DNA of 64,000 bases from Bdellovibrio sp. (GTDB taxonomy: Bacteria > Bdellovibrionota > Bacteriovoracia > Bacteriovoracales > Bacteriovoracaceae). The DNA lies in the NCBI GenBank assembly GCA_016187935.1, contig JACPIU010000020.1, positions 62,001 through 126,000 of the forward strand, read 5' to 3'. Positions 50,750 through 54,045 of the stretch are shown here, in pieces (position 1 is the stretch's first letter; every line of letters begins with the position of its first letter). Position numbers and translations under genes: made by a program. The notes below the pieces were generated by a model. The model made no database searches. It was not told the DNA's origin and saw only the letters and a list, made by a program, of their open reading frames with translations.

Positions 50750-51324
50750 CGAATCACACAATGCTTACTGTTTTCTCGACAGGGAAGCCCATCGATAAAA
50801 TCGCGCAGGTCACGGACCTGGGGTTTTAGCTGAGGGTGAAAGATCATGTATTTTCCATGTCTCATCATTATAGCGATGGCATCAGCAGAGGTTAGCCCCT
50901 GGTATTTCATCTGATAATAGGCCGCCAATCGTCCAGTGCGGTGGCAACCGCATTCACAACGAAAAGCAATCTTTTTTCCAGTAGCACGGGCCTGGGCCAC
51001 CCATTGATCAAAAAATTGCAAGAATTCCGCAGTCACGGGAGTCTTAGCACCTTGTGCAAGGTTGTAAACTATCTTGAGACGGGGACACTCTGGATGATGT
51101 CTCATTTCACGCTCTCCCGCCGTCCCACTCAATACCATCACCTCATCAATGCCAAGATCACAGAGCATCCGAACGTCTTCACGGGACGGTTTACTATAGC
51201 GGAAAATGGCAAAACCGGAGGCCTTATCATTATCAATCATATGCAAATTATTTGCTCCGGCGCTGACCTCATTTAGAGCAAAAGCCGGTAGTAAAAGACA
51301 AATCAAGAGAAACCAAAATTTCAT
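50746..51324 (-). CDS. exported Cys-based (dual-specificity-like) phosphatase
   Basis: Start at 51324 (MKFWFLLICLLLPAFALNEVSAG), a signal peptide, with GGAGG before the ATG. CX5R active-site loop: AFRCECGCHRTGRLAAYYQ, preceded by the general-acid region VYNLAQGAKTPVTAE. 192 residues. The loop carries two further cysteines beside the nucleophile (C-E-C-G-C-H-R), which could make it redox-sensitive. Periplasmic or surface phosphatase; substrate unknown. Convergent with the outer-membrane gene (4-base overlap). Confidence 0.8.
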   Translation of the reverse strand: MKFWFLLICLLLPAFALNEVSAGANNLHMIDNDKASGFAIFRYSKPSREDVRMLCDLGIDEVMVLSGTAGEREMRHHPECPRLKIVYNLAQGAKTPVTAEFLQFFDQWVAQARATGKKIAFRCECGCHRTGRLAAYYQMKYQGLTSADAIAIMMRHGKYMIFHPQLKPQVRDLRDFIDGLPCRENSKHCVIR

Positions 51325-51455
51325 AATCGCCTCCGATTTCGATCCCATTCTAAATGGCTTTGTCATAATGAGAAGACTTTTTTCTTTTCCGACCTGAGAG
51401 AGAGATGACAAAAACAATGCCTTGCGTAGTATTTTTATTGATTTTAACTATTGCA

Positions 51456-51474
51456 ATATTAATTTTATTAATAT
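51456..51474. promoter_or_regulatory. palindrome 1, candidate operator of DUF2089 operon
   Basis: ATATTAAT-TTT-ATTAATAT is a perfect 8-base inverted repeat about 50 bases before the DUF2089 ATG. It shares its TTAATTTTATTAA core with the second palindrome. Confidence 0.55.
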
Positions 51475-51487
51475 AAAACAGTCGCGA

Positions 51488-51504
51488 TGTTAATTTTATT
51501 AACA
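51488..51504. promoter_or_regulatory. palindrome 2, candidate operator of DUF2089 operon
   Basis: TGTTAAT-TTT-ATTAACA is a perfect 7-base inverted repeat. Its centre is 31 bases (about three helix turns) from that of palindrome 1, so two dimers could bind on the same face. The position suggests repression by a nearby helix-turn-helix protein. Confidence 0.55.
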
Positions 51505-51521
51505 ATCACTTTGAGATCGCT

Positions 51522-51899
51522 ATGAATAAAATGCTTGCCCATTGTCCTATTTGCCACCGCTCTCTTTATGTCCGAGAACTCGAATGCCAGTCCTGTCATA
51601 CATCTATCCGGGGCGAGTTCGAGTTGGATACTGCCAAAGTGATGGATGATGAAATTTCTCATTTCATCAAAGTCTTCATTCACGCGGAAGGCAACATCAA
51701 ACGTGTCGAAAAAATACTTAATTGCTCTTACCCCAAAGTAAAAAATCTTCTCAAAAAGGCCCAGGCCCATTTGGGCCTAAAAGAACAAGAGATTGAAGAC
51801 AGCGATCGCTCCAAAGCGAAAAAGGATGAAATTTTAGATTTGCTTGAGAGTGGAGAGATTTCAGCGGATGAGGCCATTAAGCGATTACATGAAAAATAG
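51522..51899 (+). CDS. DUF2089 zinc-ribbon/HTH protein with SHOCT-like tail
   Basis: 125 residues. Residues 8-25 form a zinc ribbon (CPIC ... CQSC). About 40-90 form a helix-turn-helix (DEISHFIKVFIHAEGNIKRVEKILNCSYPKVKNLLKKA), typical of DUF2089. Residues 100-123 form a short helical motif (DEILDLLESGEISADEAIKRL), which recurs in the next two genes. It is the likely DNA-binding regulator of this operon; two near-identical palindromes lie just upstream, so autoregulation is plausible. The next ATG is 11 bases after its stop. Confidence 0.8.
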   Translation: MNKMLAHCPICHRSLYVRELECQSCHTSIRGEFELDTAKVMDDEISHFIKVFIHAEGNIKRVEKILNCSYPKVKNLLKKAQAHLGLKEQEIEDSDRSKAKKDEILDLLESGEISADEAIKRLHEK

Positions 51900-51909
51900 G
51901 GAGGAATAT

Positions 51910-52770
51910 ATGAATTTTGCAATGACAACTCGATTGTTAAAAATAGATCTCAAGCTGAAAAGCGGAGATCTCACAATTTTTTCAGAGGACAGACAGGATT
52001 TGGAGATTGAATTTCCCGATCTGAGGAAAGGAACTATTGAAAATGATTTTGAGGTCAACTTTGAGAATGATCACCTTGTGCTTAAAGAGAAAGAAAATAA
52101 TCTATTCGGGTTGAACCGAAGAAATTCATCAGATGTCATTTTGAGAATACCCGAGGATGTAAAACTTGAAGGGAGCATCAAGTCGTACTCCGGTGATCTT
52201 CAAGCCGATACCTTTCATTTTTGCGGTGATATATCCGTCTATGCCGGTGACCTATCCTTCGAAACTTTTATAGGAGAACTTGAATTAAAATCGTACAGTG
52301 GTGATGTCACCATCGACGATGGCGAGTTTTCCGCACTTCATATTAATAGTTATTCCGGGGATGTCAAAATTAAGGCCGCCTTCAAATTGAATGAAGATGC
52401 TGAAATCAAAAGCATGTCGGGAGATGTTGCGATTGATTTTACCTCCTACCGGAGCGACAAAACGATCACTATAAATTCGCTGAGTGGTGACATCAATACT
52501 TCTGGAGCAATTCCCGAAAATAAAATAATGATCAAGCATAATCTGAAAAATCTAGGCCAAGATATCAATGCCAAAATTATGCGAGGACTGTCTAAAATTC
52601 AAAATATCGCCGGAAAAAAAAGCGACCTCGATGAAGTCAAGATTGAAATCAATCCGCATAAGAACGACCGATCAGAAAACAATCTCGATATTGATCGCAT
52701 CCTTTCCATGGTCGAGAGCGGCAGAGTGACAGTGGATGAGGCGGAACGGCTCATTAAGGCGCTTGGATAA
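51910..52770 (+). CDS. DUF4097-like beta-repeat protein with SHOCT-like tail
   Basis: 286 residues; start at 51910 with AGGGAGG upstream (a longer frame from 51844 overlaps the previous gene). Residues 1-75 are beta-rich (LKIDLKLKSGDLTIF). About six repeats follow with a core S-x-S/A-G-D (IKSYSGDLQ, VYAGDLS, LKSYSGDVTI, INSYSGDVKI, IKSMSGDVAI, INSLSGDINT), each near 20 residues, as in DUF4097/YvlB proteins. The C-terminal 27 residues are a SHOCT-like motif, RILSMVESGRVTVDEAERLIKAL. No signal peptide. In Bacillus, YvlB-type proteins respond to envelope stress; a similar role here is inference. Confidence 0.75.
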   Translation: MNFAMTTRLLKIDLKLKSGDLTIFSEDRQDLEIEFPDLRKGTIENDFEVNFENDHLVLKEKENNLFGLNRRNSSDVILRIPEDVKLEGSIKSYSGDLQADTFHFCGDISVYAGDLSFETFIGELELKSYSGDVTIDDGEFSALHINSYSGDVKIKAAFKLNEDAEIKSMSGDVAIDFTSYRSDKTITINSLSGDINTSGAIPENKIMIKHNLKNLGQDINAKIMRGLSKIQNIAGKKSDLDEVKIEINPHKNDRSENNLDIDRILSMVESGRVTVDEAERLIKALG

Positions 52771-52856
52771 AGCGATGAATGATAACATTTAATCGATGTC
52801 AAAACAAAAGATAGAACTATGCTTTGTAATAAACTGTAAATTATAAGGAGTTGTAT

Positions 52857-53234
52857 ATGAGTAAAACTGAAAAAATTTTGCAAATGTTGGCGGATGGGAA
52901 AATTAATGTTGAGCAGGCCGATAAGCTTCTAAGTGCGATTGATAACACCGCTGGGAGCAAAGGCCAAAAACCGGCTTCCACAAATCAAAATGGCAAACTG
53001 ATCATTGATATTCAAAGTGCCGATGGTGATGATGTAAAAGTTAACGTCCCACTTAAATTGATAGGCTTGGTGGATAGCATAATTCCAAAAGCAGTTTCGT
53101 CTGATCTCGCCAAAGAGGGAATTGATATCGCTAAAGTCCTGAGTGGTTTATCCGATTTTGAAGACATGGACGGAGACCTTGTTAACATCAATAGTGCCAA
53201 TGGCGATACGGTACGAATTTTTGTGCAAAAATAA
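52857..53234 (+). CDS. SHOCT-like small protein
   Basis: 125 residues; ATG at 52857 with AAGGAG six bases upstream. The N terminus (residues 3-28, KTEKILQMLADGKINVEQADKLLSAI) is the same short helical hairpin motif as at the C termini of the two upstream proteins. It is followed by a Lys/Ser linker, then a compact domain, LIIDIQSADGDDVKVNVPLKLIGLVDSIIPK, that repeats a DGDxVxVxxPxxL theme and ends VNINSANGDTVRIFVQK. No signal peptide or membrane segment. Third member of a DUF2089-DUF4097-SHOCT group. Confidence 0.7.
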   Translation: MSKTEKILQMLADGKINVEQADKLLSAIDNTAGSKGQKPASTNQNGKLIIDIQSADGDDVKVNVPLKLIGLVDSIIPKAVSSDLAKEGIDIAKVLSGLSDFEDMDGDLVNINSANGDTVRIFVQK

Positions 53235-53253
53235 CCGGCAGAAGAAAGTGAAT

Positions 53254-54045
53254 GTGAAACGCATTGAACGTTGGGGAAGCGAAATTGTCTACGAGATAAA
53301 AGGCTCCGGCGTTCCTTTACTTCTATGCCATGGACTGATGGGTGATGGTTCGTTCTGGGATGAAATAGCTTTCAAACTTCAGCAAAATTTTTGTCTGATT
53401 ATTCCCGATTTACGCGGGCACCGCCACTCGCCTTCATCCCTTCCCTTCACTCTTTGGGATTTGGCCGATGATATGATTGCCATACTCGATGCCGAGAAGA
53501 TTAAAATCGCCCATGCCGTTGGTTTTTCAATGGGAGGCATGGCCGCCTTGAGAATGGCCATAAAATATCCCTCACGCGTGGCAAGTCTGGGACTTATTAG
53601 CACCGCCGCTTGCCAAGAGAGCTTGAAGTCTCAAAGAAGAAATATCCGTCTGGCCAGTTTAATTCGCATGACGGGCCCTCTGCGTATTTTTGAAGCCATG
53701 GCAAAAAAACGGATGTTCAGTCAGACCTTTCTACAATCAAATCCGCAAGAAATGGAAAAAATCATGAAGAGCATGCGCCGGCAGCGTGGCCCTTCAGTGT
53801 CCCATGCAATCACGGCAGTTTTCTGTCGCGATAATATCGTACCATTTTTAAAGAATATTGCTCTCCCAACCCTGATTTTAGTTGGCACTCATGATAAATC
53901 TACTCCGCCAAAATGGTCGGCCGAGATGGCCTCCCACATTCCTCATCACAAGTTTGTTCAACTGGATGGAGCTGGACATCTGGCACCGACTGAACGTCCC
54001 GAAGAAGTCACTCGACATCTCCTTGATTTTTTATTTCAAACGTGA
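53254..54045 (+). CDS. alpha/beta hydrolase
   Basis: Starts are GTG (53254 or 53248) after AGAAGAAAG; an ATG at 53200 overlaps the previous gene. Oxyanion-hole LLLCHGLMGDGSFWD, nucleophile elbow GFSMGGMAA (GxSxG) and C-terminal DGAGHLAPTERP with the catalytic His; the acid is in LVGTHDKSTPP. About 264 residues. Esterase, lipase or haloperoxidase-type activity cannot be separated by sequence alone. It follows the SHOCT gene closely, so it may share its transcript. Confidence 0.85.
   Translation: MKRIERWGSEIVYEIKGSGVPLLLCHGLMGDGSFWDEIAFKLQQNFCLIIPDLRGHRHSPSSLPFTLWDLADDMIAILDAEKIKIAHAVGFSMGGMAALRMAIKYPSRVASLGLISTAACQESLKSQRRNIRLASLIRMTGPLRIFEAMAKKRMFSQTFLQSNPQEMEKIMKSMRRQRGPSVSHAITAVFCRDNIVPFLKNIALPTLILVGTHDKSTPPKWSAEMASHIPHHKFVQLDGAGHLAPTERPEEVTRHLLDFLFQT

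Follow-up and report, generated by a model that had tools for sequence, protein, structure and literature searches.

Three consecutive genes in the window, which is the whole stretch of 64,000 nucleotides of Bdellovibrio sp. DNA that was analysed, encode proteins sharing one short helical hairpin. The reading favoured here, which we consider reasonably probable, is that the first gene encodes a DUF2089 autoregulator acting on phased arrays of sites at its own promoter and modulated by its operon partners through heterotypic pairing of SHOCT-like hairpins. The following features were recognized at the locus:

51459-51471, no strand assigned: dyad 1, TTAATTTTATTAA, inside the perfect palindrome ATATTAATTTTATTAATAT (ATATTAAT-TTT-ATTAATAT, 51456-51474)
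51490-51502, no strand assigned: dyad 2, TTAATTTTATTAA, inside the perfect palindrome TGTTAATTTTATTAACA (TGTTAAT-TTT-ATTAACA, 51488-51504)
51522-51899, plus strand: gene 1, DUF2089 regulator with a zinc ribbon (aa 8-36), an HTH (aa 42-86) and a C-terminal SHOCT-like hairpin (aa 102-122), from Pfam and an AlphaFold model
51910-52770, plus strand: gene 2, Toastrack (DUF4097) protein with a C-terminal SHOCT-like hairpin (aa 261-285), from Pfam
52857-53234, plus strand: gene 3, here called SHOCT-X, with an N-terminal SHOCT-like hairpin (aa 4-29) followed by a domain of ~85 aa without a Pfam model

The domain content proposed in the initial annotation, a zinc ribbon and HTH in gene 1 and a repeated S-x-S-G-D in gene 2, was borne out by Pfam scans and by the translations. 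The gene 1 ribbon matched PF22747 (E 7e-13) and its HTH PF09862 (E 1.5e-15), with the four zinc-ribbon cysteines present, and gene 2 matched Toastrack PF13349 (E 9e-17, 61.7 bits versus a cut-off of 22.9), the repeat lying within this domain. A whole-genome search revealed that gene 2 is the only DUF4097 gene in the 4.4-Mb genome. AlphaFold modelled the gene 1 product (mean pLDDT 83.5) with the ribbon, a three-helix HTH (helices 43-54, 59-66 and 70-84) and a separate hairpin (93-109, 115-123), and the modelled HTH was similar to the DNA-binding HTH folds of LuxR-type proteins, sigma region 4 and Fis, with weak Foldseek E-values. The SHOCT-X model was of low confidence (pLDDT 66, pTM 0.37), its C-terminal domain comprising a beta-hairpin, helices and a second beta-hairpin, and a fold search with it retrieved no match (best E 0.3). 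PDB sequence searches with all three trio proteins returned nothing significant. In two Bacillota loci (L025 5772-6050; L155 3301-3588), a second SHOCT-X-like domain devoid of the hairpin was found after SHOCT-X, so this unnamed domain seems to occur alone too.

The preferred start of gene 2 was ATG 51910, with GGAGG immediately 5′, and that of gene 3 was ATG 52857, leaving a gap of 86 bp between both genes; a single operon is the best explanation for the trio. Directly downstream, a PcaD-like alpha/beta hydrolase gene (53230-54045) was observed, whose start overlaps or abuts the gene 3 stop. No relative of this hydrolase or of the upstream phosphatase was present around any other DUF2089 locus that was examined, and both were therefore left out of the module.

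The shared motif was found exactly as first annotated, at the C terminus, C terminus and N terminus of the successive proteins, as ILDLLESGEISADEAIKRL, ILSMVESGRVTVDEAERLI and ILQMLADGKINVEQADKLL, respectively. The Pfam model PF22746 ('SHOCT-like_DUF2089-C') scored 25.7 bits on the gene 1 protein, slightly below its 27-bit cut-off, and 33.2 and 32.7 bits on those of genes 2 and 3. In the whole-genome search the corresponding scores were 27, 37.4 and 34.4 bits, and these were the only three matches reaching the cut-off in 4.4 Mb, all within 1.1 kb, which excludes a chance clustering of three SHOCT-like domains.

The initial annotation proposed searching related genomes for co-occurrence, and this turned out positive. 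Among 369 genomes of the window's phylum, 29 carried DUF2089, and a SHOCT-bearing neighbour with an N-terminal hairpin accompanied it in all 28 fully readable loci besides the window (L063-L090; L091, a fragment, was not counted). Most of these neighbours were detected with purpose-built profiles and two (L076 and L080) by reading the sequence. DUF2089 was also present in about a third of the sampled Bacillota genomes (103/299), with scattered occurrences in many further phyla. A SHOCT-bearing neighbour lay within a 1.5-kb flank in 28 of 30 Bacillota loci. The partners within the phylum were SHOCT-X, Toastrack or pentapeptide-repeat proteins, and SHOCT-X relatives were found in many of the DUF2089 loci. 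A two-gene arrangement, DUF2089 followed by a SHOCT-like and pentapeptide-repeat protein, was common there (L066, L068, L071, L074-L089). The exact Toastrack trio was rare in the phylum sample, being restricted to the window and G030, and two genomes of the same genus lacked DUF2089, so that the trio is patchy and possibly mobile or often lost. The arrangement does not depend on the zinc ribbon, since the DUF2089 proteins of L029, L030 and L032 kept this region without its cysteines.

A SHOCT-like hairpin might be a generic oligomerisation or localisation tag, in which case there would be no binding among the three copies and the genes would be neighbours for other reasons. SHOCT and SHOCT-like domains are attached to many unrelated domains (PMC11237479; PMC3581485), as expected for such a tag. 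However, the association of the regulator with a SHOCT-bearing partner was near-universal while the remainder of the partner varied among SHOCT-X, Toastrack and pentapeptide repeats, and no SHOCT-like domain above the cut-off was found in the window genome outside the trio, which renders this explanation rather unlikely. A further indication came from the residue after the loop glycine in aligned hairpins. This residue was acidic in 67 of 80 DUF2089 regulators (E in 64 and D in 3, against K in 7 and others in 6) and K or R in 59 of 61 partners, comprising 14/14 Toastrack and 45/47 SHOCT-X hairpins; in the pentapeptide-type partners of the window's phylum the position was more mixed. A lasting opposition of loop charge across phyla, as read from these alignments, fits a heterotypic pairing between regulator and partner better than self-pairing, although the contrast could instead reflect inheritance within each class. 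The acidic charge of the partners was also considered as evidence and was rejected as too ordinary.

It was proposed in the initial annotation, and by Ravi et al. for DUF2089/Toastrack neighbourhoods, that such genes take part in envelope sensing. According to this proposal, the trio would be a module of the PSP/Lia type, in which Toastrack and SHOCT-like domains form a sub-membrane sensor that relays membrane damage to DUF2089. In the 2024 study, Toastrack and SHOCT-like domains are predicted to assemble sub-membrane complexes (PMC11237479), and two-hybrid assays revealed an interaction of YvlB, a Toastrack protein of B. subtilis, with PspA and LiaH (PMC9239133). Moreover, four-gene operons encoding DUF2089, Toastrack-SHOCT, a protein of ~140 aa with 2-4 predicted TM segments and SHOCT-X were confirmed in Delongbacteria, Mcinerneyibacteriota, WOR-3, Cloacimonadota and one Bacillota MAG. 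Against this, no membrane gene lies between the Toastrack and SHOCT-X genes of the window, and the TM gene was likewise missing beside the trio in G030 (L090) and L027. A TM scan predicted no TM segment in the trio proteins, and the search for a homologue of the TM partner in the window genome revealed none intact, only a broken weak match. In this genome, which is 99% complete, there was no match to PspA (PF04012), for which the control search was positive in 9 of 14 genomes, nor to PspC (PF04024), so that neither the PspA/LiaH component nor the PspC-type membrane sensor of the PSP and Lia systems was detected. LptD (PF04453) had no match in window positions 51300-53400 or in the whole genome. 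A comparison of SHOCT-X with the C-terminal part of the TM partner gave no support for a common origin (hhalign probability 5%). Because the trio lacks a TM gene and the genome lacks PspA, PspC and an intact TM homologue, the membrane-stress reading is weaker here than in general, and the classical envelope link is unlikely for this locus.

The preferred reading, an autoregulator modulated by its partners, draws on the DNA upstream of gene 1 as well. Position 51456, at which the initial annotation began its feature, marks the start of an operator-like palindrome that its description omits. Two such palindromes precede gene 1, with their dyads 31 bp apart, and this tandem pair occurred once in the 4.4-Mb genome, at the gene 1 promoter. 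In the genome, 22 sites matched TTAATNNNATTAA and 14 matched the reversed control; of those examined as loci, long arms were found only at the two gene 1 promoter sites, the other singles being short-armed, and for these reasons no wider regulon is claimed. Promoter scanning of the window revealed no convincing sigma70 site, so that where the dyads lie with respect to the transcription start is uncertain in the window and was judged from relatives.

TTAA-Nk-TTAA sites were counted upstream of DUF2089 genes, the pattern having been noticed in 48 non-redundant diverse loci and then tested on 30 unused Bacillota loci. In the first set, 50 TTAA-N5-TTAA sites were distributed in 33 of the 48 upstream regions, versus a mean of 2.7 and a maximum of 9 in 300 dinucleotide shuffles and about 0.8 in other windows taken from these loci as controls. 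In the independent Bacillota set, 24 sites were found in 17 of the 30 loci versus 1.6 expected (maximum 6), and TTAA-N17-TTAA occurred 35 times versus 1.3 expected. No exact dyad was present within 200 bp in 15/48 and 13/30 loci, respectively. The pooled TTAA spacings peaked at 9, 12, 21, 30/31, 40/42, 51/52 and 61 bp, with z of 35 at 9 and 21 bp, and none of these peaks was seen in control windows. Judged from these spacings, the dyads recur at whole helix turns (21, 31, 42 and 52 bp). A tandem-pair search in 13 genomes traced from their loci was too noisy in the AT-rich ones.

A sigma70-like promoter, sometimes weak, was recognisable in 45 of the 78 loci, in which TTAA starts clustered at -42, -21, -12, +9, +30 and +42, counted from where the -35 box begins. 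In these loci the -35 box itself often corresponded to a TTGA-N5-TTAA dyad; in several relatives the dyad abuts the box and does not cover it. Delongbacteria DUF2089 genes without a directly upstream dyad had one before the first operon gene, beside a TTGACA box, in 5/7 loci (L013, L014, L017, L018 and L019). Operons of this group open with an extra gene of ~50 codons, nearly a bare SHOCT-like hairpin, placed between the dyad and DUF2089 (L013 270-434; L014 4836-4985; L017 4830-4991; L019 4831-4983; L023 4834-4986).

Plasmid-borne copies were also observed. In Legionella adelaidensis (L156 380-2854), DUF2089 lies behind an SbmA/BacA-like transporter gene, and an exact dyad, TTAATTTAATTAA, precedes the transporter at the presumed operon start. 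In the mobilizable plasmid pL1277-4 of Lactiplantibacillus plantarum (L157 2209-2800), a short DUF2089 gene adjoins an aureocin A53-family bacteriocin gene, and its upstream region contained no exact TTAA-N5-TTAA dyad.

That the dyads belong to another regulator or a nucleoid protein would suit a tie to DUF2089 that is one of gene association, but it is highly unlikely. The dyads accompany DUF2089 in several phyla and also in some of its plasmid-borne copies, mark the beginning of the operon where additional genes lie ahead of DUF2089, and form a tandem pair found nowhere else in the window genome. Further targets would be expected if they served a foreign regulator common to these loci.

The enrichment of the dyads, their phasing, the promoter register and the single tandem occurrence in the genome altogether led us to infer that DUF2089 binds its own promoter. 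DUF2089 would thus very probably be the protein bound to the dyads and would control its own operon, acting locally in the window organism. With a conserved predicted operator at its promoter, the gene 1 product resembles DNA-binding autoregulators of the usual type, and the description of the trio as unlike classical one-component systems is doubtful. In the proposed mechanism, DUF2089 dimers would line up on one face of the DNA at TTAA-N5-TTAA dyads, two of them in this case, 31 bp apart, and would most likely repress the operon by covering its promoter. The Toastrack and SHOCT-X hairpins would dock on the C-terminal hairpin of the regulator, a basic partner loop facing the acidic regulator loop, and the docked partners would either tune the DNA occupancy of DUF2089, generating a feedback, or anchor it on a protein platform. 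Repression is suggested by dyads that cover the promoter; activation would also suit the relatives in which the dyad lies next to the -35 box without covering it, and we lean to repression. Binding between hairpins is likewise a presumed step, to which the loop charges point. As for the input signal, envelope stress is a weakened candidate here. A broader generalization would hold DUF2089 proteins to be widespread promoter-covering autorepressors on helically phased TTAA dyads, with Toastrack, pentapeptide-repeat or SHOCT-X partners as hairpin-docked anti-repressors of complementary loop charge, whose mostly acidic beta-helix competes with the DNA for the regulator or peels it off, the window being a minimal membrane-free version; it is quite doubtful at this extent.

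In a literature survey conducted outside subscription journals, and limited to the text available, neither a described function nor an operator was found for DUF2089, and the enrichment of dyads at DUF2089 promoters is new here. The predicted operator, common to several phyla and in register with promoters, offers a testable DNA target for the family, and the SHOCT pairing rule points to protein surfaces for mutation. Since DUF2089 and Toastrack are combined here in a genome that lacks PspA and PspC and at a locus with no membrane gene, their combination should not be taken to imply a role at the membrane.

The arrangement of the trio, first taken as one not recognized before, is not new in kind, its parts being already known. 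Ravi et al. described in 2024 a four-gene Toastrack context with DUF2089 across diverse lineages, in which DUF2089 was divided into zinc ribbon, HTH and SHOCT-like domains, and SHOCT-like domains were found at both ends of Toastrack proteins; no mention of an operator was found in the portion of that paper available (PMC11237479). The window shares with this context the same DUF2089 architecture and the Toastrack gene, and differs from it in lacking the membrane gene, with PspA and PspC absent from its genome. YvlB of Bacillus subtilis also fuses Toastrack to a SHOCT-like hairpin, as in gene 2, but its hairpins are N-terminal and that of gene 2 is C-terminal. Moreover, the products of the yvl operon include membrane proteins, one of them the PspC homologue YvlC, but no DUF2089 regulator (PMC9239133), whereas the window trio includes DUF2089. 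In leaderless bacteriocin clusters (bawcin, enterocin DD14 and thucin; PMC10707071, PMC7332713 and PMC9484092), the DUF2089 family is present by annotation, as short proteins (89-98 aa in bawcin and DD14) encoded among bacteriocin, ABC-transporter and PH-domain genes. The pair formed by DUF2089 and a SHOCT-pentapeptide-repeat protein (for example in L068, L074, L076 and L087) has the same regulator followed by an N-terminal SHOCT-like hairpin with a repeat domain, but it comprises two genes only, with pentapeptide repeats in place of Toastrack. Pentapeptide repeats adopt a right-handed beta-helix fold. The same fold was attributed to Toastrack by Ravi et al. (PMC11237479), and this common architecture may explain why the two domains exchange as partners of the regulator.
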